Both the position numbers and the translations under genes were made by a program. The notes under the pieces are model-generated. The model did not search any database. It was not told where the DNA came from and was given only the letters and a program-made list of their open reading frames with translations. From NCBI RefSeq assembly GCF_900177385.1, contig NZ_FXBJ01000002.1, positions 2,112,001 through 2,176,000 on the forward strand: a DNA stretch of 64,000 nucleotides, given 5' to 3'. Numbering within the stretch: the first letter of the stretch is position 1; each line of letters begins with the position of its first letter. The stretch is from Carnobacterium iners (lineage in GTDB: Bacteria; Bacillota; Bacilli; Lactobacillales; Carnobacteriaceae). Shown in pieces: positions 31,464 to 59,363 of the stretch.

Positions 31464-33422
31464 TTATTTACTGTCTTTTTTTAAATAAATATGTTTTTCA
31501 AACGTTTTTAACGGATTAAGTGCATGTCCGCCACCTTCATAAAATTTACCAAAAAATTCAACATATTGTAATCTTGCTGTATGCACATACGCACTCAGAT
31601 AAGTTAAGAAGATATTTAAAGAATGTAGAGCAATAAACAATAGAATTCCAACAGTGAACTTAGCCACTGGTGGAAGGAAATCAACAATCATATTAAATGC
31701 TGCTGCGATACTTCCACCTGAAATACCTAAAGCCATCAGTCTTGTATAACTAACTAAATCGCCGACATAACCGGTTATTCCATAAATATTATACAAGCCA
31801 AGTGCAGCTCCCAAACCTTTACTTTCCGATGACAACATCGTTACAAAAATAATTCCAACAACGTTTACGCCAATCAGAATGTAAGCGACTAAATTAAGAA
31901 TTGGACTATCAAATACCATCATTCCTAATACTAGTAAGCCTATACCTAGAAGAATCCCAACCCAGGCCATACCATCGACATAACTAGAAGCACGTTGTTG
32001 TTTTCTCCACTTCACTCCACTATTAATAAGCAAGCCATAGATCAGTTGGATAAAACCAAAAATTACAGAAACAATCAATATCGTTATGACATCAGATGTT
32101 GTAGATAATAGTTGAATTGGTAATTCGTAACCTATAAAACTACCATAAACTAATCCCCAAACGATTACGGAATAAGATAGTAGATTGAAAAAGCGAATAA
32201 ATTTAGCTGTTCCACGATCAAGATTAAATAGTTTCTGGGCAGCAAGTGTCCCAACCATAAGAATCAAGCCATACCCTACATCTGCACTCATCATACCAAA
32301 GAATACTAAGTAAAAAGGCATCATGAATGGCGTCGGATCAATATCGTCGTATTTAGGCAGACTATACATTTCAGTAATACTCTCAAATGGTTCTACGAAC
32401 TTATTATTTTTTAAAACAACAGGGACGATATCAAATTCTTTCATCTTAATTTCTTCTGGGATAATAGCATAATTATTTTGCCCAAGATGCTCATCCAAAA
32501 GTTTGCTCAAATCAGAAAATTGTTCTTCTTCTAACCAACCATTTAGCATGAAGAGACTATTGCCGTTTAACAGAAGATCTTTTCCAATTTCTCTTTGGTG
32601 TAGATTGTAATAATATTCCTCTCCCAATTGTAATTCCTTTAACTGAGGAGAAAATTGCAACAATTCTTTTTTCAATTTCCGCTCTTTTTCTTGTAGTGCT
32701 TTATTTTCAGTCCTATTTTTTTGTAGCTCTTCTTTAGGTAAGGATTTGTAAGGATAAGTGAATTTAGTAAACTGAAACTGGTTTAGTACTTCTTCGATTA
32801 CTTTTTCATTATCTTTTGCAGTAATAACTAGATACGCTGCTTCGTCTTTGTATAGAAAAATTTCATCCATATAATTAGTTTCAGATTCTTTTAAAGCTTC
32901 TTTAAAATCCGATACATTTCCTGAACAAATTGTTCCAACAAATGCTGAAGTCAATTTAAATTTAGTCAAGTCATTGGGATTAAAACTTAAAGGCTCCCAC
33001 TTACGCAAGAATAACTCTTCCTCATTTAACGTTTTTTGCTTTTGATCTAAAATGATGAGTTCCTTTTCCTTTTCTGAAACGTCATCGCAAATCTCTTTCA
33101 ACCGGGTAATCGAAACCGATTTTTCAAGCTCTTCTAATGTGTATTCTTCTCTACCTGCCTTTAATTTAGCAAACATTCCTGCTTTAGGAATGTATTGATT
33201 TAAATAAGTCAAAGAATATTGAATATCTTTTAATCGTTCTTCGTATTCCATTCTTTCATTTGCTGGTTTTTCTTTAGAGTAGTAATCAAGAAGCGTTGAT
33301 TCTTCTAAAGTAGACAGATCAAACAGTTCTAGTCTTTGTAACTCCTGTACTGCCTTTAGTAGAAGGTCTTTATCTGTTTGTTCAGCTAAGAGCGTTACTT
33401 TTTTCATTTTAGCTATTGCCAT
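31464..33422 (-). CDS. ntpI: V-type Na+-ATPase membrane subunit I (a subunit)
   Basis: Provides the ion half-channels and anchors the stators. The N-terminal cytoplasmic half (about 1-320) is mostly helical; the C-terminal half has about eight membrane helices, with LVSYTRLMALGISGG carrying a conserved Arg. The start is set at ATG 33422 (MAIAKMKKVTLLAEQ) behind AAGGAGG with long spacing, overlapping ntpF by 14 bases; a further upstream start would lie deep inside ntpF. 652 residues. Confidence 0.93.
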   Translation of the reverse strand: MAIAKMKKVTLLAEQTDKDLLLKAVQELQRLELFDLSTLEESTLLDYYSKEKPANERMEYEERLKDIQYSLTYLNQYIPKAGMFAKLKAGREEYTLEELEKSVSITRLKEICDDVSEKEKELIILDQKQKTLNEEELFLRKWEPLSFNPNDLTKFKLTSAFVGTICSGNVSDFKEALKESETNYMDEIFLYKDEAAYLVITAKDNEKVIEEVLNQFQFTKFTYPYKSLPKEELQKNRTENKALQEKERKLKKELLQFSPQLKELQLGEEYYYNLHQREIGKDLLLNGNSLFMLNGWLEEEQFSDLSKLLDEHLGQNNYAIIPEEIKMKEFDIVPVVLKNNKFVEPFESITEMYSLPKYDDIDPTPFMMPFYLVFFGMMSADVGYGLILMVGTLAAQKLFNLDRGTAKFIRFFNLLSYSVIVWGLVYGSFIGYELPIQLLSTTSDVITILIVSVIFGFIQLIYGLLINSGVKWRKQQRASSYVDGMAWVGILLGIGLLVLGMMVFDSPILNLVAYILIGVNVVGIIFVTMLSSESKGLGAALGLYNIYGITGYVGDLVSYTRLMALGISGGSIAAAFNMIVDFLPPVAKFTVGILLFIALHSLNIFLTYLSAYVHTARLQYVEFFGKFYEGGGHALNPLKTFEKHIYLKKDSK

Positions 33423-33735
33423 AGCGATTGACGACCTCCTTAACAATATCATTAACTACATTTTTTTTATTCATCTGAACGGACTGTTTCATTTTTTCTA
33501 CTTCAACCGTGATTACTTTATTTATTTCTTCTTTAATAGAGGTAATTTTTTCATCATATTCTTTTTGTTGTATATCTTCGTAATCTTTTAATTCTGAGGA
33601 TAATTTCTTTTTATTTCCTTCAATTACTACTTGCACTTCAGCTTTTATACTTTTTATTTCACTGATACTGTCTAGCTCTAACTTCGCTGCTTTTTCTTCT
33701 GCTTTTTTGACGTATTCTACAGTTTCTAAACTCAT
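33409..33735 (-). CDS. ntpF: V-type Na+-ATPase subunit NtpF (peripheral stalk, G/H-like)
   Basis: 108 residues, almost entirely a charged alpha helix rich in Lys, Glu and Val, ending VVNRYGNS. Length and composition fit the G/H-like stator helix that pairs with NtpE. It is the first gene of the operon, as in E. hirae. ATG follows GAGGAGGTGAGATA. Similarity is low-complexity, so identity rests on position. Confidence 0.85.
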   Translation of the reverse strand: MSLETVEYVKKAEEKAAKLELDSISEIKSIKAEVQVVIEGNKKKLSSELKDYEDIQQKEYDEKITSIKEEINKVITVEVEKMKQSVQMNKKNVVNDIVKEVVNRYGNS

Positions 33736-33751
33736 TATCTCACCTCCTCAA

Positions 33752-33822
33752 GAATAAAAAATAGGCGTGCTTGAAAAGACTTCTTCTCACCCCTTGAAGA
33801 ATCATCCTTGAAAGCTATCGCC
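33752..33822 (-). promoter_or_regulatory. Terminator-like hairpin in the ntp operon leader
   Basis: On the minus strand GGCG (33819-33822) pairs with CGCC (33764-33767). Inside are GCTT/AAGC and GATTCTTC/GAAGAAGTC (one bulge). The closing CGCC is followed by TATTTTTTATT, then by the ntpF ribosome site. The shape is that of an attenuator; no ligand-binding motif was recognised. Confidence 0.45.
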
Positions 33823-34013
33823 CAACCGTTACACTCTATTTTATTAAGTAAACTAAGTTTATCCCAAATAATGAAATCCTTTTGATGACTTTCCCTCTAA
33901 GAAAAAAACACTACTCCACCTAACTTGACGCCTTTTAATTTTTATGCTTATCTCTACAAACAACTTATTTCTTAGCTGTTGTTCAACAACATATTTAAAC
34001 TTATACTTGTACC

Positions 34014-39397: not shown

Positions 39398-39449
39398 TCT
39401 TCCTATATCTTTTAAAATTTTGAACCTAGAATTTATATCGCAAAACGGT

Positions 39450-39660
39450 TAAAAAAACTCCCGTGGTTCCACCTCAATTTATTGATGCTTCACAGTATCA
39501 ATCTCAAAAAGTACTATCATACTTTTGCACTGTAACGGGTGCGAGTCCCGAATCCAACTACTCCCAAAAAATGGTTTCACCGATTAGCTCAAAGATGTGT
39601 TCAATACACTTGTTTATGTGCTCTCACCAACCGCACACTCTCTGATAAACAACCTGTATC
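39450..39660 (-). promoter_or_regulatory. T-box leader, histidine specifier
   Basis: On the minus strand the T-box core GAGGTGGAACCACGGGAG lies at 39458-39475. Upstream there is a stem I with CAGAGAGTG and GGTTGGTGAGAGC elements. The specifier region reads GAACACATC, in which CAC (39597-39599) is a His codon. CCCGT upstream can pair with ACGGG of the T-box end, directly followed by seven T, giving a terminator alternative. This matches a tRNA-His-sensing leader for his biosynthesis or uptake genes. Confidence 0.88.
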
Positions 39661-39696
39661 TACTCTTTCTTTTCAAAGCCTATGTTTTTCTATTTG

Positions 39697-42506: not shown

Positions 42507-43175
42507 CTAGCCACGTACTTTACGTGTAGGATCTAATTTCTTTTCAATTACTCCCAGCACAAAATCACTAATAATAGCCATTAATGCTGTTGGTATAGCG
42601 CCAGATAATATAATAGCCCCTCCATCAGTAGCATTAACTCCACGTGTTATAATATCACCTAGACCCCCTGCTCCAATAAAGGTTCCAATCGCAGTGATAC
42701 CAATTCCAACAACTAGTGCATTACGAATGCCAGCCATGATAACAGATAGCGATAATGGTAATTCAATCATAAAAGTTAACTGTAATCTTGTCATTCCCAT
42801 ACCTTTTCCTGAATCCAAAACATTGTTATCAACGTTTTTTACTCCTGTATACGTGTTTTTTATAATTGGCAATAAAGAATATAAAAATACGGTAACAATA
42901 ACTGTCGTTGTACCGAGCCCTAATCCAAGCATTAAAATAGAGAGCATAGCTAAGGATGGGATAGTCTGAATCACATTAGCTATCCCGATAACCCAATTTG
43001 CTAACTTTCCTCGACGGGAAATCAAAAACCCTATCGGAATACCGATAATTGCTGCAAAAAGGACACCGTAGATAGAGATTAAAAAATGTCGTGAAAATTG
43101 CTCCCAAATATAAAAACCATTTTCACTAAAGTAATACCATAATTGTTCCCATAGGCCTAACTCTGAAACATCCAT
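42507..43175 (-). CDS. opuCD: Glycine betaine/carnitine/choline ABC permease OpuCD
   Basis: 222 residues with six membrane helices and the inner-membrane permease signature ([28 protein letters not shown]). Second permease of an OpuC-type osmoprotectant transporter. It ends the operon, two bases after opuCC. N-terminus lacks a signal; ATG at 43175. Confidence 0.92.
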   Translation of the reverse strand: MDVSELGLWEQLWYYFSENGFYIWEQFSRHFLISIYGVLFAAIIGIPIGFLISRRGKLANWVIGIANVIQTIPSLAMLSILMLGLGLGTTTVIVTVFLYSLLPIIKNTYTGVKNVDNNVLDSGKGMGMTRLQLTFMIELPLSLSVIMAGIRNALVVGIGITAIGTFIGAGGLGDIITRGVNATDGGAIILSGAIPTALMAIISDFVLGVIEKKLDPTRKVRG

Positions 43176-43177
43176 CG

Positions 43178-44116
43178 TTATTCAGCCCCCTTTTTATCTT
43201 CGAAAAAATTATTTTCGTCAAGAAAATTTCGTGCAACTGTTTTAGGCTCTAACAAATCATTGTCTGCACTAAAATTCATTTCTTGCATTTTTTCTGTTGA
43301 GATCGTGTCTTTTAATTTTAATAAAATATCATTTAATTCTGGATATTCTTTTAAAACTTGGTTTGATGCAACGGGACTAGCATCATACGGTGGAAATAAC
43401 TGTTTGTCATCTTCTAAAACAACTAAGTCATAACTTTTTATTCTTCCATCTGTTGAATAACCTAGAACAACGTCCATTTTATCTGCCTCTAAAGCATCAT
43501 AAACTAGGCCAATTTGCATAGGATACACACGATTAAAGTCAAAGCCATATGTGTTTACGAAAGCATCGTATCCATCACCTTTTCTTTCCATCCATGAAGT
43601 ATCAGCCCCCAGGTTAAGTTCTGAGATACTGTCTTTTAAATCGCTAATTGTTTTAAGTCCATATTTTTCAGAAGTTTCTTTTGTCACCATGAATGCGTAA
43701 GAGTTTGAAAAACCATAGCTTGGAAACCACTTTTGATCAAATTCTGTTTCAAATCCCTCTACAACAGTATCAAACGCTTTAATAGGATCTGTTATAGGGT
43801 CTAAAGCCAATTCACCTGTCAAAGAAGTCCCTGTATAACGAGCCCCTGATACGTTTGCATCTCCGCCAATTAATGCTTGATGATTTAGTGTAGATGAACC
43901 TAAATTATTAATAATTCCTGCATCAACATCTAAATAGTGCTCAACCATACCCTCGACAATAAAGGCTAAAATCTGTGTTTCGGAAGTCGTACCTCCTGTA
44001 ATGATAATACCTTCTCCATCAAGCCCTCCACCTAAGCCCGGAAGTGAACAACTGCTTAATACAACAGTTGCAAAAAGAAGAATCACAATTTTTTTAAATT
44101 TATTGATTGTGTTCAT
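43178..44116 (-). CDS. opuCC: Osmoprotectant-binding lipoprotein OpuCC
   Basis: 312 residues. A signal peptide with lipobox LSSC places the mature N-terminal Cys at about residue 23; the mature part begins SLPGLGG. The rest is the OsmF/OpuCC-type binding protein (IIITGGTTSETQILAFIVEG, LNHQALIGGDANVSGARYTGT). It delivers quaternary ammonium compounds to OpuCB-OpuCD. Between the two permease genes, as in Bacillus and Listeria. Confidence 0.92.
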   Translation of the reverse strand: MNTINKFKKIVILLFATVVLSSCSLPGLGGGLDGEGIIITGGTTSETQILAFIVEGMVEHYLDVDAGIINNLGSSTLNHQALIGGDANVSGARYTGTSLTGELALDPITDPIKAFDTVVEGFETEFDQKWFPSYGFSNSYAFMVTKETSEKYGLKTISDLKDSISELNLGADTSWMERKGDGYDAFVNTYGFDFNRVYPMQIGLVYDALEADKMDVVLGYSTDGRIKSYDLVVLEDDKQLFPPYDASPVASNQVLKEYPELNDILLKLKDTISTEKMQEMNFSADNDLLEPKTVARNFLDENNFFEDKKGAE

Positions 44117-44138
44117 TATTTAAAAACCTCCTATATTT

Positions 44139-44762
44139 TTATGCTTGAGCGAGTGTTACTTTTTCCTCTAGTTTTCCTAATAAAAAATCTATTATTAATG
44201 CCATTAATGTCACCGGTATCGTTCCGGCAAGAATAAATTCAGTACTAAACACATTTAATCCATTAAAAATAAAGTCTCCTAATCCACCAGCTCCGATATA
44301 AGAGGCTAATGCGGCCCATGCTATCACGTATACTCCAGAAAGACGGATACCAGCCATTATCACAGGTGCTGCTTGCGGCAATTCTACAAGCCGAATTAAA
44401 TCTATATCTGTCATTCCCATACCTTTACCGGCATCTTTTAAACCTGCATCTACTCCTTGTACTCCAATAAACGTATTTCTTAAAATTGGCAGTAATGAAT
44501 AGATAAATAATGCGACGATGGCAGGGATTTTTCCAATACCTAAAATTGGAATCATCAAAGCTAATAAAGCTAAAGAGGGAACCGTTTGTAAAATTGTTGC
44601 TAATCCAATAATAAATGATGATAATCTTTTAAACCGAGTTAGTACAATACCTAGAGGAACTGCTACGATAACTCCAAGAAACAAAGCAATCATAGAAATA
44701 TAGAGGTGTTCCCAAGTTTTTAACAATAGGTCAGAACCATTGTTTACAAAAAAATCAACCAT
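44139..44762 (-). CDS. opuCB: Glycine betaine/carnitine/choline ABC permease OpuCB
   Basis: 207 residues, five to six membrane helices and the permease loop [30 protein letters not shown]. First permease of the OpuC system; pairs with OpuCD. ATG at 44762, 12 bases after opuCA. Confidence 0.92.
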
Positions 44763-44774
44763 ATCTCTTCCCTC

Positions 44775-45959
44775 CTATTCTTTACTTTCTTTTGCTGTCA
44801 TCGATTCCATCTTATTTCCGTCAGGGATATCAGCTTCGTCGCTATCGCCCCAAATCGTATCATAAACAATATCCACTAGCGATGCGCGTGTAACAATTCC
44901 TACCAAGTGATTGTTTTCATCTACAACAGGTACATTTTTAAAGCCCCGTTTTAGAATACGCTGAACAGTGTCTCTCAAAAGAGTTTCTTTTCTTACAAAA
45001 TAAACTTTGTTAGACATAATATCTCCAACACTCGTAGCTTTTTTTCTGTTTAAATCGATACTTTCAATATCAACAAAACCTTTAAGTACACCCGCGTCAT
45101 CTGTTACCAATAATGTATCTACACGACGATCGCGCATGATTTTAATCGCGTCTGAAATAGATTTTCCAGGTGTGACAGATGCTGGATTTTTTAACATGAC
45201 TTGTTCAACTGTTTGGATATTTGGTCTTGCTTGTATTAAGCGATCTTCGCCAATAAAATCTTCAACAAATTGATTAGCTGGAGCTGATAAAATATTATCC
45301 GGAGTATCGAATTGAACGACTTTTCCTTCTTGCATAATAACGATTCTATCTGCTAATTTTAAGGCCTCATCCATATCATGAGTAACAAATACGATTGTTT
45401 TATCTAATTCTTTTTGTAGTTCTTTAAGTAATTCTTGTAAGGAGTCTCTTGTAATCGGATCTAATGCACCAAATGGCTCATCCATTAAAATAATATCTTG
45501 ATCAGCTGCTAGTGCACGAATAACACCTATTCTTTGTTGCTGACCTCCAGAAAGTTCTGATGGATACCGATCCAAGAAATCTAACGGTAAATCCACTTTT
45601 TTTATAAGATCTTCTGCTATTGCTCTTTGCTTTTTTAGAGGCCATTTCATTAATCGAGGAACTAACACAATGTTATTAAATATTGTCATATGAGGCATCA
45701 AGCCGATTTGTTGAATTACATAGCCAATTTTACGTCGCAACTTTACTGGATCTTGTTTCATAATATCTTCACCATTAATTAAAATCTGACCAGATGTGGG
45801 CTCAATCATTCGATTAATCATTCTCATGGATGTTGTTTTGCCACTACCACTCGTACCGATAAAAACAATAAACTCTCCTTTATTAAAAAAAAGATTGATA
45901 TTTTCTACAGCTTTCTTGCCGCCTTTGTAGACTTTTGAAATATTTTTAAATTCAATCAT
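44775..45959 (-). CDS. opuCA: Osmoprotectant ABC transporter ATPase OpuCA with CBS domains
   Basis: 394 residues. Walker A GTSGSGKTT near 35-43, signature LSGGQQQRIGV, Walker B IILMDEPFGALDP. Two CBS domains at about 250-370 (VEQVMLKNPASVT; VGDIMSNKVYFV) may sense ionic strength or a nucleotide. Start ATG at 45959 (MIEFKNISKVYKGGKK) behind GAGGGTGG; a GTG three codons earlier is possible. First gene of opuCABCD. Confidence 0.94.
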   Translation of the reverse strand: MIEFKNISKVYKGGKKAVENINLFFNKGEFIVFIGTSGSGKTTSMRMINRMIEPTSGQILINGEDIMKQDPVKLRRKIGYVIQQIGLMPHMTIFNNIVLVPRLMKWPLKKQRAIAEDLIKKVDLPLDFLDRYPSELSGGQQQRIGVIRALAADQDIILMDEPFGALDPITRDSLQELLKELQKELDKTIVFVTHDMDEALKLADRIVIMQEGKVVQFDTPDNILSAPANQFVEDFIGEDRLIQARPNIQTVEQVMLKNPASVTPGKSISDAIKIMRDRRVDTLLVTDDAGVLKGFVDIESIDLNRKKATSVGDIMSNKVYFVRKETLLRDTVQRILKRGFKNVPVVDENNHLVGIVTRASLVDIVYDTIWGDSDEADIPDGNKMESMTAKESKE

Positions 45960-46020
45960 CGTTTCCACCCTCTTTTTTAATTTTCATTTCTTTTATAAAA
46001 AACTCAGATAGTACAGCCTT

Positions 46021-49500: not shown

Positions 49501-50079
49501 TTAATTGAGCTTACTTTTTTCTGTTGGTAGAAATAAATCAGGACTTGTCTTACTTAATAAAACTAACACCATTGCTGTAACAGTCATCGTAGCAAACGCG
49601 CTACTGCCATTCGCAATAAACGAGTACCAAACTGGGCTCATTCCTTCGGGGGCATAGCTTCCCCAAAAATAATATCCAGCAACAAAATGCCAGAAGAAGC
49701 GGGCAATTGTTCCTACGATTGCTGCAAGAACAATATAATAAACTGCTTTAATCTGTTTACTATTTTTGATTGTAGCTTGAACTGGTTTTGCCAATAATCC
49801 TGCCATTCCAGCAAACGTAAATGCTATAAAATATTCAATAAATCCTTGAACTAGACTCAAGATTGCGACATTACCGGTTAGATAATGCAAAATCCCCCAT
49901 AAAAAACCTGCAGTTAAACCCGCAATTGTTCCTCTTCTAAGTGAATATAAAACCAAAGGGATCATCCCTAATGAAATGGTAAAGCCTGTTCCAATATTAG
50001 TAGGTATCATAGATAAAACAATCGCTGTTGCTGCCACTATTGTTCCTTCAATCCATACTCGTAAACTAATATTTTCCAT
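49501..50079 (-). CDS. thiT: Thiamine ECF transporter S component ThiT
   Basis: 192 residues with six membrane helices; the pattern IPTNIGTGFTISLGMIPLVL, GFLWGILHYLTG and the C-terminal ARFFWHFVAGYYFWGSYAPEG with Trp and Tyr residues of the thiamine pocket fit ThiT. Works with the shared ECF energizing module encoded elsewhere. Start ATG at 50079 behind AGAGGAGG. Preceded by a TPP riboswitch, which confirms the substrate. Confidence 0.93.
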   Translation of the reverse strand: MENISLRVWIEGTIVAATAIVLSMIPTNIGTGFTISLGMIPLVLYSLRRGTIAGLTAGFLWGILHYLTGNVAILSLVQGFIEYFIAFTFAGMAGLLAKPVQATIKNSKQIKAVYYIVLAAIVGTIARFFWHFVAGYYFWGSYAPEGMSPVWYSFIANGSSAFATMTVTAMVLVLLSKTSPDLFLPTEKSKLN

Positions 50080-50086
50080 AAAAAAA

Positions 50087-50130
50087 CCTCCTCTTAATGT
50101 GCTGAACAGTGCCACACATCAAAGGAGGAG
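50087..50130 (-). promoter_or_regulatory. Ribosome-site sequestering hairpin of the thiT leader
   Basis: CTCCTCCTTTGATGTG (50115-50130) can pair with CACATTAAGAGGAGG (50087-50101) on the minus strand, hiding the AGAGGAGG site of thiT. No T-run follows. The switch therefore probably acts at translation. Confidence 0.75.
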
Positions 50131-50163
50131 CTAAAATGATTATTTTATTAATCAGTTGCCCCG

Positions 50164-50249
50164 TCACAATCCCTACGCTCGTACTAACGAACAGGTTCGA
50201 AGGGTTAGAATCAAAGATTCAATCTCAGCTTTACAGCACCCCTTTGTGA
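50164..50249 (-). promoter_or_regulatory. TPP riboswitch aptamer (THI element)
   Basis: Minus strand: P1 arms TCACAA (50244-50249) and TTGTGA (50164-50169) enclose the conserved GGGGTGC, CTGAGA, ACCC-TTC-GAACCTG and GTAGGGA segments in the right order. All core elements of the THI box are seen. Binding of TPP would lower thiT expression. Confidence 0.95.
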
Positions 50250-50282
50250 TGGTTGTTCTATTTTATTTTTTCTTACTTAATT

Positions 50283-50483: not shown

Positions 50484-51893
50484 TTAACGAAAACTTTTAA
50501 TTAATTGTCCTATTGCTGATGAACGGGAGGCATATAACGGAATAGTCCCATTTTTTGCCCCGACTGACTGCCGTGTTTTCTCATGCAATAACGACGATAA
50601 ACGAACCGTTTGGTTTAACTTACGTTGATTTCTCGCACTTCTATTTTGTTGGTGAAGATAGGCTTCACGCAAGGTGTGATTAAACATCCCTTGTTTTACC
50701 TTTACCATAGCTTCGCAACCTTCTGCGCTCCAATGCATTCCTCGCTTTTTCATGCGAAAAGAGATACGTCGTTGATTGGACTCCATTGCGCCTAAACCTC
50801 TTGCGTCCTTCGGCGCTTGTTCTACTTTTTCGCGCCAATCGAAAATTCGATCCCAATTTCGTACTACATAGGTTCGAAATGTAGTCAGTTTTTCCACTGC
50901 AGAAGTTTCATCTAGCGTACTTTCATACGTATCCAACCAAATAGTTAACTGATCTAAATCATGCGTCTTTAATGCTTGTTTGACCTGCTGTTTAAAAATG
51001 GTAGTTTTCACGCCAAATGCACGGTTTAACCCTTGAAAAACATGATAAGAGTCTAGCTGATTTAAAACAGGGTAGTTCGATTGAGAAAAAGCTTCTTGGA
51101 ATTTGTCTGCGGTATACCCTTGTCCGCCGTCACTATTTGTAATGATTTGAGCTTGTTGTAAGGCATAATGATTCGCTGTAAAGGCTTGAATCTCTGCCCA
51201 AAAACCAGCGGTTTTTTTAGTCGTCATAATGGCTTTGGGTTCCTTTAAAGAGACGCGTTTCCCATTTTTATTCCAGCCTTCATAAAGGATGGCATGACGA
51301 ACTTCTAAGCTCTTTTTCTTTTTTGTCCCACGGACAAAAACTCCATCAGCCTCGGCATAAAGATAGTCTACCTTTTTTCCTTCCGGCAACTCAGCTGATT
51401 CTTCTAGTTCCAATACGCTCTCTTCATCTTCACGTGCTTGTGCGGATCCAACGCGTTTGAGAAGACTACCGACTGTTTGATGACTAATCGTAACAGCTGT
51501 CCATTCATTTAACATATTTGCAGTATCTCTATAAGTAACTTTACTCGCCAACTCTGCCACTTTTACTTCTACTAATGGACTATGGCGTTGATATTTCCGA
51601 ATACCTAGCCAGTCATCTAGCGGATAATGATTTTGACTCTCTTGATCTATCATCAAGGTACGACAATAACGAACAGACCCAAAAATAAACTGAACGGTTT
51701 TCCAATCTTCTCGTTTCACTTTCCAACCTTCCTCTTGTTTCTGCTCTTTGATTACCTGATTGAGATGAGTGAAGACATCTCCTACTAATTCAGCGAATAC
51801 TTCATACATACAGACTTGAATAGCTTCTTCTGTCTCTATTAAATTGCTTGAATCCTTTATTATTTGGTAAACCTTTGATATAATCTTATTCAT
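50484..51893 (-). CDS. ISLre2-family transposase
   Basis: 469 residues in one uninterrupted frame. MNKIISKVYQIIKDSS begins a helical N-terminal part; the YRDTANMLNEWTAVTISHQTV segment near residue 140 is a helix-turn-helix-like region, and YAEADGVFVRG near 195, NSDGGQGYT near 260 and the following Glu-rich part fit the DDE catalytic core of the UPF0236/ISLre2 group. ATG at 51893 with AAAGAGG upstream. Likely active. Confidence 0.85.
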   Translation of the reverse strand: MNKIISKVYQIIKDSSNLIETEEAIQVCMYEVFAELVGDVFTHLNQVIKEQKQEEGWKVKREDWKTVQFIFGSVRYCRTLMIDQESQNHYPLDDWLGIRKYQRHSPLVEVKVAELASKVTYRDTANMLNEWTAVTISHQTVGSLLKRVGSAQAREDEESVLELEESAELPEGKKVDYLYAEADGVFVRGTKKKKSLEVRHAILYEGWNKNGKRVSLKEPKAIMTTKKTAGFWAEIQAFTANHYALQQAQIITNSDGGQGYTADKFQEAFSQSNYPVLNQLDSYHVFQGLNRAFGVKTTIFKQQVKQALKTHDLDQLTIWLDTYESTLDETSAVEKLTTFRTYVVRNWDRIFDWREKVEQAPKDARGLGAMESNQRRISFRMKKRGMHWSAEGCEAMVKVKQGMFNHTLREAYLHQQNRSARNQRKLNQTVRLSSLLHEKTRQSVGAKNGTIPLYASRSSAIGQLIKSFR

Positions 51894-52007
51894 AAGAAGG
51901 CCTCTTTCATTTATGTATTTGCCGCTCAAGCATACATTTATGATAGAACGTCTTCTTTCTTTTTGCTAGTAAAAAATAATAGTATCTCGAGAACTATTTT
52001 ACACATA

Positions 52008-54282: not shown

Positions 54283-55482
54283 TTGACGAAGATTAAAGTA
54301 GAAAATGTTACAAAAATTTTCGGTAAAAAAAGTGAACGTGTTACTGAGCTTCTAGACCAGAATAAATCAAAGCAAGAAATTTTACAAGAAACAGGCGTTA
54401 CTGTTGGTGTCAACAATGTTAGTTTTACAATCGAAGAAGGTGAAGTTTTTGTCATCATGGGTCTATCTGGTAGTGGTAAATCCACTTTGGTTAGAATGCT
54501 TAATAGACTAATCGATACAACGCAAGGGAACATCTACATTGATGGTGAAAATCTATCTAAGATGAGCAAGAAAGACTTGCGTGAAGTAAGACGTAAGAAG
54601 ATGAGTATGGTTTTCCAAAACTTCGCACTATTTCCTCAACGTACAATTCTTGAAAATACCGAATATGGTTTAGAAATTCAAGACATTGATAAAAAAGAAA
54701 GAACCCAAAAAGCTACGCAAGCTTTAGAAAACGCTGGCCTAGGTGATTACATTCATCAACACCCTAATCAATTATCTGGTGGTATGCAACAACGTGTCGG
54801 TTTAGCTAGAGCATTAGCTAATAATCCTGAAATTCTATTAATGGATGAAGCTTTCTCTGCTTTAGATCCACTCATTCGAAAAGAAATGCAAGATGAGTTA
54901 GTAGAACTACAAGCGACCGTAAAGAAAACAATTATTTTTATTACTCATGATTTGAATGAAGCTTTAAGAATTGGCGATCGCATTGCTTTGATGAAAGATG
55001 GCGCTATTGTACAGATTGGAACACCTGAAGAAATTTTAATGAAACCTGCAGATGATTACGTTGAACGCTTTGTTGAAGATGTTGACCGTTCTAAAGTTCT
55101 TACTGCTGAAAACATTATGAAACGACCTGAAACAGTTAATATAAATAAGCATGGTCCACGTGTTGCATTAGAACAAATGAAACGTGAAGGAATATCAAGT
55201 ATTATTGTCGTTGACGATAATCGTAACTTAAAAGGTTATGTAACTGCTGAAGATGCTTCTGAAGCACGTAAAAACTCGATTACAAGTCTGGAAACCATTC
55301 TAAAATTAGACATACCAACAGTTGATCGTACAACAACAATGAATGATATTTTTTCAGTTATTCACGATACAGTAACCCCTGTTGCTGTAGTAGATAACAA
55401 AAAATTAGTTGGTATTATTGTTAGAGGAGCGGTAATCGCTGCACTAGCAGGCGAAAGCGAGGAGGAATTAATCAATGAATAA
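54283..55482 (+). CDS. opuAA: Glycine betaine ABC transporter ATPase OpuAA with CBS domains
   Basis: 399 residues. N-terminal [20 protein letters not shown] and the extended region before Walker A ([17 protein letters not shown] near 65-80) are typical of OpuAA/GbuA. Signature [15 protein letters not shown], Walker [14 protein letters not shown]. Two CBS domains from about 275 on ([32 protein letters not shown]); in Lactococcus OpuA such domains sense ionic strength. Start TTG at 54283 behind AAAAGGAG. First gene of the operon; overlaps opuAB by 8 bases. Confidence 0.94.
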
Positions 55483-56329
55483 TATTTTAAACTTAGTTCC
55501 TAAGCTGCCAGTAGCTGAACAAATTGAAAGATTAACAAGATGGATAACACAAACATTTTCATTTCTGTTTGATCCTATTCAAACATATTCAGAATTATTT
55601 ATGGATGGAATCACAACCTTTTTATTGTTTATTCCACCAATCATTTTTATTCTCTTAATTGCGCTACTAGCATTCTTTGTCTCTGGCAAAAAATTTGGCT
55701 TAACTACTTTTTCAATCGTAGGTTTATGGTTCATTTATAACCAAGGACACTGGGAGAATTTGATGAATACTATTACTTTAGTATTAGTAGCTAGTCTACT
55801 TTCAGTTATTATTGGTGTTCCATTTGGAATATTAATGGCTAAAAGTACAATTGCTAACAATATTTTGAAACCAGTTTTAGACTTCATGCAAACTATGCCT
55901 GCCTTTGTCTATCTTATACCGGCAGTTGCATTTTTCGGTATCGGAGTCGTTCCAGGAGTTTTTGCTTCTCTAATCTTTGCTATCCCTCCTACTGTTCGTT
56001 TTACTAATTTAGGGATACGTCAAGTCTCTACTGAATTAGTTGAAGCATCAGAAGCATTTGGTAGCACAGGTTTCCAAAAATTATTTAAAGTTGAATTGCC
56101 TCTTGCAACATCCACAATCATGGCAGGAATTAACCAAACGGTTATGCTAGCATTATCAATGGTCGTTATTGCTTCTATGATTGGTGCGCCAGGTTTAGGT
56201 AGAGAAGTTCTCTCTTCATTGCAACGTGCACAGATTGGAACAGGATTTGTTTCTGGTATTGGCTTGGTTGTATTAGCCATTATTATTGACCGTATCACTC
56301 AAAAATTAACCAATAAAACTAAAAAATAG
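55475..56329 (+). CDS. opuAB: Glycine betaine ABC permease OpuAB
   Basis: 284 residues, about seven membrane helices, with the permease loop [22 protein letters not shown] and a typical [28 protein letters not shown] stretch. In Lactococcus OpuA the binding protein is fused to this permease; here it is separate, as in Bacillus and Listeria Gbu. ATG at 55475 behind GAGGAGGAA inside opuAA. Confidence 0.94.
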
Positions 56330-56347: not shown

Positions 56348-57241
56348 TTGAGAAAGAAAGAATATAAATATCTAGGGATCATAACAGGACTTGCCCTTTC
56401 CATTTTCGCAGCAGGTTGTTCAACTGATAACTCAAAAGTGATTAACGATGATTCAGTAGGAAAGGGTCAAGAAATTGATCTTGCTTATGTAGAATGGGAT
56501 ACAGAAATAGCTTCTACAAATGTGATTGGAACTGTTTTAGAAGAACTAGGCTACGACATCAACCTAATCCCGCTTGATAATGCCGTTATGTGGGAAGCTA
56601 TTTCAACTGGTGAAGCTGACGCAATGGTTGCTGCTTGGCTGCCTGATACACATGCAGCACATTACAAAAACTATCGTGGAAATCTTGTAAACTTAGGTGA
56701 GAATCTAGGTGGCGCTAAACTTGGTTTAGTTGTTCCTAAATACATGGACGTTGATTCTATTGAAGACTTGACGAATGAAGCTAATAAAACAATTACTTCA
56801 ATTGAACCTGGTGCAGGCATAGTGGCTGCGGCAGAAACTGCAGTTGAAGAATATGATAGTCTGAGTGGTTGGGACTTAGATACTTCTTCATCTGGGGCGA
56901 TGGTTGTTGCTTTAAAAAAAGCTATTGAAAATGAAGAAGAGATTATTATTACTGGCTGGTCTCCTCATTGGAAATTTTCAACCTATGATTTAAAATATCT
57001 TGAAGATCCTAAAAAAGCTTTTGGAGGAACAGAAACAATCAACACAATGGTCAGGACAGATTTAGAAAAAGATATGCCTGAAGCCTATAAAGTTTTGGAT
57101 CAATTTAATTGGACAAAAGAAGACGTTGAATCTGTTATGTTACCTATTAGTGAAGGTGAAGATCCTAAAGATGCAGCAAAAGAATGGATTAAAGATAATT
57201 CCGATAAAGTTGAAGCTTGGACTAAGGATGTAGTTAAATAA
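56348..57241 (+). CDS. opuAC: Glycine betaine-binding lipoprotein, copy 1
   Basis: 297 residues. Signal peptide with lipobox FAAGC (Cys24). The mature protein keeps the aromatic residues typical of OpuAC/GbuC binding sites: LAYVEWDTE (Trp50), VMWEA (Trp82), AAWLP (Trp97) and GWSPHW (Trp204, His207, Trp208). At residue 209 it has Lys, where the two following copies have Met, next to the ligand-binding loop. Start TTG at 56348 with AAAGGTGG upstream. First of three tandem paralogues, all 297 residues. Confidence 0.92.
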   Translation: MRKKEYKYLGIITGLALSIFAAGCSTDNSKVINDDSVGKGQEIDLAYVEWDTEIASTNVIGTVLEELGYDINLIPLDNAVMWEAISTGEADAMVAAWLPDTHAAHYKNYRGNLVNLGENLGGAKLGLVVPKYMDVDSIEDLTNEANKTITSIEPGAGIVAAAETAVEEYDSLSGWDLDTSSSGAMVVALKKAIENEEEIIITGWSPHWKFSTYDLKYLEDPKKAFGGTETINTMVRTDLEKDMPEAYKVLDQFNWTKEDVESVMLPISEGEDPKDAAKEWIKDNSDKVEAWTKDVVK

Positions 57242-57274
57242 AATTTATTAAAACATTAATAAAGGGGTTTTATT

Positions 57275-58168
57275 TTGAAAAAAAATAATTTCAACTATTT
57301 AGGGATTTTGACAGGACTTGCACTTTCATTGTTCGCTACAGGTTGTGCATCTGATGATGCACAAACAACTAAAGATGATTCTGTAGGCAAAGGTCAAAAA
57401 ATTGATCTTGCTTATGTAGAATGGGATACAGAAGTAGCTTCTACAAATGTGATTGGAACTGTTTTAGAAGATCTGGGCTACGACGTTAACCTAATTTCGC
57501 TTGATAACGCCATTATGTGGGAAGCTGTTTCGAACGGTGAAGCTGACGCTATGGTAGCTGCTTGGCTACCTGAGACGAACGCAGCGCATTATGAAAAATA
57601 TGGTAAGGACCTAGAAAACTTAGGTGAAAATTTAAGTGGTGCTAAACTCGGTTTAGTTGTTCCTGAATACATGGACGTTGAGTCTATTGAAGACCTAACG
57701 AATGAAGCTAATAAAGCGATTACTGGAATTGAGCCTGGTGCAAGCATAGTAGCCGCAACAGAAAACGCATTAAAACAATATGATAGTCTAAATGATTGGA
57801 ACTTAAATACTTCTTCATCTGGAGCAATGACCGTTGCTTTGAAACAAGCTATTGAAAACGAAGAAGAAGTCGTCATTACAGGATGGTCACCCCACTGGAT
57901 GTTTGCAACATATGACTTAAAATATCTTAATGACCCTAAAGAAATTTTTGGTGGAATAGAAACAATTAACACAATGGTTAGAAAAAATTTAAAAACAGAT
58001 ATGCCTGAAGCTTACAAGGTTTTAGATCAATTTAACTGGACAACTGAGGATATTGAAACTGTTATGTTAGCAATCAGCGAAGGTGAAGATCCCAAAGATG
58101 CAGCAAAAGCATGGATCAATGATCATCCCGAGGAAGTTACGGCTTGGACAAAAGACGTAAAAAAATAA
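57275..58168 (+). CDS. Glycine betaine-binding lipoprotein, copy 2
   Basis: 297 residues, collinear with copy 1 without gaps. Lipobox FATGC (Cys24), and the same Trp50, Trp82, Trp97, Trp204, His207 and Trp208. Residue 209 is Met, as in copy 3. Differences are scattered over the surface regions, for example NAIMWEAVSNGE and ETNAAHYEKYG. Start TTG at 57275 with AAAGGGG upstream, 33 bases after copy 1. Same ATPase-permease pair upstream, so it probably competes for it. Confidence 0.9.
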   Translation: MKKNNFNYLGILTGLALSLFATGCASDDAQTTKDDSVGKGQKIDLAYVEWDTEVASTNVIGTVLEDLGYDVNLISLDNAIMWEAVSNGEADAMVAAWLPETNAAHYEKYGKDLENLGENLSGAKLGLVVPEYMDVESIEDLTNEANKAITGIEPGASIVAATENALKQYDSLNDWNLNTSSSGAMTVALKQAIENEEEVVITGWSPHWMFATYDLKYLNDPKEIFGGIETINTMVRKNLKTDMPEAYKVLDQFNWTTEDIETVMLAISEGEDPKDAAKAWINDHPEEVTAWTKDVKK

Positions 58169-58214
58169 TAACGTTAAAACATTTACTAAAAAATATATAG
58201 AAGGTGGTTTTATT

Positions 58215-59108
58215 TTGAAAAAAAATAATTTTAAACATTTAGGACTTGCAACAGGATTGGCACTTTCATTATTCGCAGCAGGTTGTGCGTCCGATGATGC
58301 AGAAACAGCTAAAGATGATTCAGTCGGTAAAGGTCAAGAAATTGATCTGGCATATGTCGAATGGGATACAGAAGTAGCTTCTACAAACGTTGTTGGTTCT
58401 GTTTTAGAAGGTTTAGGCTACGATGTTAACCTAATTCCTCTTGATAATGCTGTTATGTGGGAAGCTGTTTCGACAGGCGAAGCAGATGCTATGGTTGCTG
58501 CTTGGTTACCCGGTACTCACGCAGCTCAATATGAAAAATACGGTAATGATGTTGATAATTTAGGGGAAAATTTAAGTGGTGCTAAACTTGGTTTAGTCGT
58601 TCCTAAATACATGGATGTTGATTCTATTGAAGACCTAACCGACGAAGCTAGTAAAACAATCACAGGAATTGAACCTGGTGCTGGTGTCGTTGCTGCTACA
58701 GAAACGACAATGAAAGAATACGACAATTTAGGGGATTGGAAATTAGAAACCTCTTCATCTGGCGCTATGACCGTTGCATTGAAACAAGCTATTGAAAATG
58801 AAGAAGATATTATTGTTACTGGTTGGTCTCCTCACTGGATGTTTGCAACCTATGATTTGAAATATTTAGCTGACTCTAAAGAAACTTTCGGCGGAGTTGA
58901 AACAATTAATACCATGGCTAGAAAAGATTTAGAAAAAGACATGCCTGAAGCTTATAAAGTTCTAGACCAATTTAACTGGACAACTGAAGATATTGAATCT
59001 ATTATGTTAGCTATCAGCGAAGGTGAAGATCCTAAAGATGCTGCAGAAGCATGGATCGATGATCATGCTGAAGAAGTTGCAGCTTGGACAAAAGGTGTAA
59101 GTAAATAA
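58215..59108 (+). CDS. Glycine betaine-binding lipoprotein, copy 3
   Basis: 297 residues, the same architecture: lipobox FAAGC (Cys24), all ligand-site Trp residues and PHWMF. The leader region (MKKNNFKHLGLATGLALSLF) is closest to copy 2, which suggests copy 2 and 3 separated last. Start TTG at 58215 behind AAGGTGG, 46 bases after copy 2. It ends the operon before a strong terminator. Confidence 0.9.
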   Translation: MKKNNFKHLGLATGLALSLFAAGCASDDAETAKDDSVGKGQEIDLAYVEWDTEVASTNVVGSVLEGLGYDVNLIPLDNAVMWEAVSTGEADAMVAAWLPGTHAAQYEKYGNDVDNLGENLSGAKLGLVVPKYMDVDSIEDLTDEASKTITGIEPGAGVVAATETTMKEYDNLGDWKLETSSSGAMTVALKQAIENEEDIIVTGWSPHWMFATYDLKYLADSKETFGGVETINTMARKDLEKDMPEAYKVLDQFNWTTEDIESIMLAISEGEDPKDAAEAWIDDHAEEVAAWTKGVSK

Positions 59109-59149
59109 AATTAATTTAATTACCTAGTTTTCACTTAATTTATAAACTA

Positions 59150-59193
59150 AAAAAAGATGTTTCTTCCTCATTTTGGGAGAAGCATCTTTTTTT
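59150..59193 (+). terminator. Terminator of the opuA operon
   Basis: AAAAAGATGTTTCTTCC / GGGAGAAGCATCTTTTTTT, a long stem with a 7-base loop and a T-tract, 40 bases beyond copy 3. Confidence 0.85.
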
Positions 59194-59363
59194 GTTGCAG
59201 TTTTTTTTATTTTTTCAATCTAATCATTTTCTAATTAAGCACTCTTTAAGCTGTTTTTGCTGTGATACACTTAATCTAATACTAATTCGCCTATAGTACA
59301 CTAACAAGATACGTTAAACACCTATATGAGCCACTCTAGCATCTCTATCGGCTTAACATAAAC

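Follow-up and report, generated by a model that had tools for sequence, protein, structure and literature searches.

OpuA is a model ABC importer. In Lactococcus lactis (OpuAA plus OpuABC; structures 3l6g/3l6h and 7ahc-7ahh), an ATPase with CBS domains serves a permease to which one kind of receptor is fused. In Bacillus subtilis (OpuAA-OpuAB-OpuAC), the ATPase, the permease and a lipoprotein receptor are encoded by separate genes, and the single receptor has its two lobes inverted in order. OpuA importers with several receptors are also known: Ureibacillus and Lysinibacillus loci carry an extra receptor behind one ATPase-permease pair, making two, and in most of them the second has its lobes in inverted order and keeps the canonical contact residues. 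Among amino-acid importers, GlnPQ of lactic acid bacteria has one core fed by several receptors of different ligands (PMC8025302), placed in tandem and fused to the permease.

We analysed a 64,000-nucleotide stretch of the Carnobacterium iners genome (hereafter the window). It contains an OpuA unit that shares with L. lactis the CBS ATPase, the permease, a receptor about 60% identical and the same Trp cage, and with B. subtilis the separate genes. In contrast to both, and to the fused receptors of GlnPQ, it encodes three free lipoproteins, one of which has an altered carboxylate site; the residues changed are the equivalents of two B. subtilis contacts (positions 157 and 102, see below). This receptor variant is the modestly new element. 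With two apparently canonical receptors next to one that differs at two residues of the carboxylate site, this natural triplet lends itself to testing how the choice of ligand evolves. It also bears on a question raised for OpuA: do free receptors that differ in ligand compete for a shared core, or do they cooperate on it?

Gene anatomy of the unit

All genes of the unit lie on the + strand. The first encodes an OpuA/ProV-type, OpuAA-like ATPase with two CBS domains (54283..55482; TIGR01186 496 bits for a cut-off of 326.6, PF00005, PF00571 twice). It overlaps by 8 nt the gene of an OpuAB-like permease (55475..56329; PF00528), which adjoins ATPase and receptor genes in relatives too. Behind this opuAA-opuAB pair come, as had been predicted, three lipoprotein genes of 297 codons each, copy 1 (56348..57241), copy 2 (57275..58168) and copy 3 (58215..59108), all with a TTG start and a purine-rich ribosome-binding site. 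At the nucleotide level the repeats follow one another in register at intervals of 927 and 940. The array had been described as having no gaps; this holds for the protein alignment, which is free of indels, but not for the genes, which are separated by spacers of 33 and 46 nt.

The three products match the OpuAC family PF04069 far over its cut-off. Retention of the lipobox and of the ligand-site Trp residues in every copy, another element of the original prediction, was borne out by a Cys24 in lipobox-like context and by nine Trp residues in register, with the cage W50, W97 and W204 present throughout. The choline-binding receptor profile ChoX (TIGR03414) gave 140–153 bits, for a cut-off of 379. 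The locus thus combines a ProV/OpuAA-subfamily ATPase with CBS domains, a single permease type followed by OpuAC-family receptors, and the Trp cage, and the ATPase-permease-receptor order is the same in relatives. By its sequence, the unit is an OpuA-type, CBS-containing osmolyte importer with three separately encoded lipoprotein receptors and a predicted function in glycine-betaine uptake.

An intrinsic terminator (59148..59194, +), with a stem of about 19 bp and a T run, ends the unit (MFE −25.4 kcal/mol, z −7.4). Folding of the junctions between receptor genes revealed no terminator- or attenuator-like structure, and a promoter scan gave no signal above that of shuffled sequences. ATPase, permease and the three receptors are probably carried on one transcript.

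Changes at the carboxylate end of the ligand site

The receptors are related to that of L. lactis OpuA (E 5e-102) and to B. subtilis OpuAC. For L. lactis OpuA, the carboxylate contacts are given as G437, V438 and a histidine that appears in print as H392, and the Trp prism includes W484 (PMC2861598). The L. lactis receptor aligns to the three copies gaplessly, with an offset of 280. In the aligned L. lactis sequence residue 392 is Ser and the only His nearby is 382, so that His382 was taken as the contact in question. In the numbering of the copies, 437/438 then correspond to 157/158, His382 to 102 and W484 to 204. The contacts of B. subtilis OpuAC, W72, W178, W225, Gly26, Ile27 and His230, fall by alignment on positions 204, 50, 97, 157, 158 and 102, respectively.

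Copies 1 and 3 have the canonical site (W50, W97, W204, H102, G157). In copy 2 the Trp cage is intact, and the two carboxylate-contact positions carry Asn102 (AAC, 57578..57580, +) and Ser157 (AGC, 57743..57745, +), which the first reading of the sequence had overlooked. Position 102 is His in 74/74 background homologues, and position 157 is Gly in 97% of homologues. Because of Asn102 and Ser157, copy 2 was filed as an OpuAC homologue and not as a glycine-betaine receptor, whereas copies 1 and 3 keep both OpuAC carboxylate contacts, His102 and Gly157.

Departures were counted at the 93 positions that are at least 95% conserved in the background of 74 homologues. Copy 1 had none, copy 3 only P221S, and copy 2 only H102N and G157S. 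The probability that both copy 2 departures fall by chance on the five contact positions is 0.002, a post hoc value. Under a stricter background, made up of 53 single-receptor loci, N284H also appeared in copies 2 and 3 and V85I in copy 1, none of them at a ligand contact. H102N and G157S were likewise the only departures at the 93 positions in copy 1 of the array of a second species (G005). A search for the codon pattern of Asn102 in 395 genomes of the order found no receptor beyond these two; a third match (G318) lay outside any receptor frame and was attributed to chance, and an apparent N102 in another locus (L110) arose because a receptor of different order had been misaligned. For copy 2, a confident AlphaFold model (mean pLDDT 86) had as best match the closed, betaine-bound L. 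lactis receptor 3l6h (TM 0.93 by target length, 60% identity), which serves as a check of the fold only.

The original prediction had singled out copy 1 for its Lys209 (AAA, 56972..56974, +), in place of the Met of copies 2 and 3. The residues were read correctly, but Lys is the majority residue there (52 of 82 homologues, Met in the other 30), single-copy homologues included, and Lys209 was rejected as a marker of specialisation. The accompanying proposal that the array widens the substrate range fared better, in that a ligand change is plausible; the residues implicate copy 2, with H102N and G157S, rather than copy 1.

We favour, with a probability of roughly 50%, the reading that copies 1 and 3 serve as ordinary receptors for glycine betaine and that copy 2 is a retained receptor whose altered carboxylate subsite gives it another ligand or affinity, with delivery to the same permease. 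For copies 1 and 3, as canonical OpuAC receptors, the most likely ligands would be glycine betaine and also proline betaine. In copy 2, the Trp cage would still hold a trimethylammonium head, while the carboxylate subsite would be changed by Asn102 for His and Ser157 for Gly. Its ligand would most likely be a related compound with a quaternary ammonium or sulfonium group, or else glycine betaine itself, bound with changed affinity; a change of one kind or the other is expected. All three receptors presumably dock on the one permease, to which copy 2 would deliver its ligand, as would copies 1 and 3, and the three free lipoproteins should compete for a single docking site. Competition of receptors with differing scope on one core has been discussed (PMC11065425). 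Several points speak against this reading. A carboxylate can be hydrogen-bonded by Asn too, and position 157 makes its contact via the backbone, so that copy 2 may still bind glycine betaine; the Asn/Ser pair is known from two species only; and the closest sister genome (G007, see below) manages without copies 1 and 2. Neither the genome nor 17 relatives yielded a betaine-aldehyde dehydrogenase scoring above the cut-off, which makes choline (through glycine-betaine synthesis) a disfavoured, if conceivable, ligand of copy 2.

The altered site of copy 2 would also fit a non-transporting sensor or decoy, comparable to the choline-associated GbsU-type binding proteins; GbsU, a receptor-like protein without a transporter of its own, has been described (PMC6207618). 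We regard this as very improbable: copy 2 sits within a transporter unit, it is as conserved outside the site as copies 1 and 3, and no sensor partner was seen adjoining it.

Divergence, gene conversion and loss of receptor copies

Protein identity was 75% between copies 1 and 2, 76% between 1 and 3, and 81% between 2 and 3. The corresponding dS values were 0.61, 0.89 and 0.73, and the dN/dS values 0.22, 0.16 and 0.13. The copies are therefore old and under purifying selection. Together with the tree, these ratios uphold the earlier proposal of tandem duplication plus selection.

In the whole-gene tree, copy 3 grouped with copy 3 of G005 and with the receptor of G007 (93/89), and copies 1 and 2 of both species were separate from this group (94/91). 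The tree varied along the gene. For codons 1–95 the copies of the window's genome clustered together, as expected from gene conversion; for codons 96–180, copies 1 and 2 of both species came together, apart from both copies 3. Recent gene conversion as the sole pattern, which had been named as the outcome contrary to the prediction, was not what the window's genome displayed, and conversion was visible in the G005 array. There, copies 1 and 3 were 96% and 95% identical at their ends and 81% identical over codons 96–195 (P 1e-10, with segment boundaries drawn after inspection of the data). Between the window and G005, the orthologous copies 3 diverged evenly (84, 83 and 87% across the segments). 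This difference indicates that in G005 conversion homogenised the ends of copies 1 and 3 and spared the middle.

Four residues (102, 157, 168 and 176) are common only to copy 2 of the window and copy 1 of G005, and codons 101–102 read ACG AAC in both. These shared features favour a single ancestral Asn/Ser variant, which conversion would have partly overwritten in G005. A parallel change of 102 and 157 in the two species is a conceivable alternative, because the whole-gene tree pairs copies by species and leaves the two Asn/Ser copies ungrouped. Either origin suggests selection on positions 102 and 157. In a broader reading, which we hold tentatively, a second kind of receptor with an altered carboxylate site would be conserved on one OpuA core in this genus: conversion would homogenise the rest of the gene, selection would keep the ligand-determining central segment distinct, and the importer would have a built-in choice of ligands. 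The array illustrates how tandem paralogues may remain distinct under gene conversion.

Copy number at this locus was compared in 18 genomes of the family. The locus holds three copies in G000, G005 and G008 and two in G011, and most of the other genomes have a single one; the g2 members of the set have a more distant receptor at the locus. In the tree, the G008/G011 array had a separate origin. In G007, ATPase and permease are 98% identical to those of the window, and the sole intact receptor is 98% identical to copy 3. The stretch between permease and receptor holds a stub, interrupted by two in-frame stops, whose sequence matches the 3′ end of the other copies (71% identity to copy 2 over 147 nt, E 5e-18). 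This decayed remnant shows that the extra copies were lost, and an assembly collapse was rejected as the cause of the single copy.

Such losses, the conversion in G005 and the range of one to three copies in the family are also what neutral turnover would produce, with duplicates arising by unequal crossing over and then homogenised or lost, and with the site changes of copy 2 as drift in a redundant copy. This is unlikely, given the intact frames, the dN/dS of 0.13–0.22, the few departures at conserved positions, and the persistence of the Asn/Ser pair in two species despite the surrounding conversion.

Dosage is a more serious rival, though still a doubtful one. The three receptors would bind glycine betaine alike, and the array would supply each transporter with more of them, for instance when salt is high or the temperature low. 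Contact residues are identical in copies 1 and 3, all five are kept in the three copies of G008, arrays of one to three copies come and go within the family, and cooperation of OpuA receptor domains raises transport (PMC11065425). Against dosage, copy 2 departs most strongly at two positions that both contact the carboxylate, and a second species has these departures as well.

Extra receptors at other OpuA loci and neighbouring systems

At nine OpuA loci (L009, L022, L025, L027, L029, L030, L035, L039 and L058), one permease is followed by a pair of receptors whose lobe orders are opposite. The second receptors of Lysinibacillus sp. 13S34 and Metalysinibacillus (L017:6873-7748 and L024:6906-7766) carry T101M and G157N, a change at the carboxylate end. 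In a Candidatus Tetragenococcus pullicola MAG (L036:5107-7668), the OpuA permease is fused to two tandem receptor domains (853 aa), and the second domain has inverted lobe order with Cys/Gln replacing W97/H102. Extra receptors recur at the OpuA loci of Bacilli, and these cases support, descriptively, the view that change of the ligand site in such receptors is a recurring theme.

The genome holding the window (2.57 Mb) has two small contigs that share stretches with Carnobacterium plasmids, among others. A separate OpuC-type system lies about 8 kb from the array (window 42507-45968), with a CBS ATPase, two permeases and a receptor closest to OpuBC/OpuCC structures. In a third system (L106:4151-6642; G000:C2 about 1350150-1352641), an ATPase accompanies a permease fused to its receptor, which is closest to Lmo1422 (4z7e) and to the ergothioneine transporter EgtUC.

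Elsewhere in the window, a Na+ riboswitch (33781-33827, −) is located upstream of the gene for V-type ATPase subunit I (31464-33452), a position that suggests sodium control of the V-ATPase operon. A T-box (39438-39685, −) precedes genes with IGPD and GATase domains that resemble part of a his operon, and a TPP riboswitch (50153-50253, −) precedes a membrane-protein gene (49501-50115). Between the latter gene and the OpuA unit, a transposase-like protein of the UPF0236 family (50484-51929, −) likely marks an insertion element. Finally, three matches of equal score in one relative (G015:C1:820307, 893430 and 966553) are exactly 73,123 bases apart, which suggests a repeated block or an assembly artefact.
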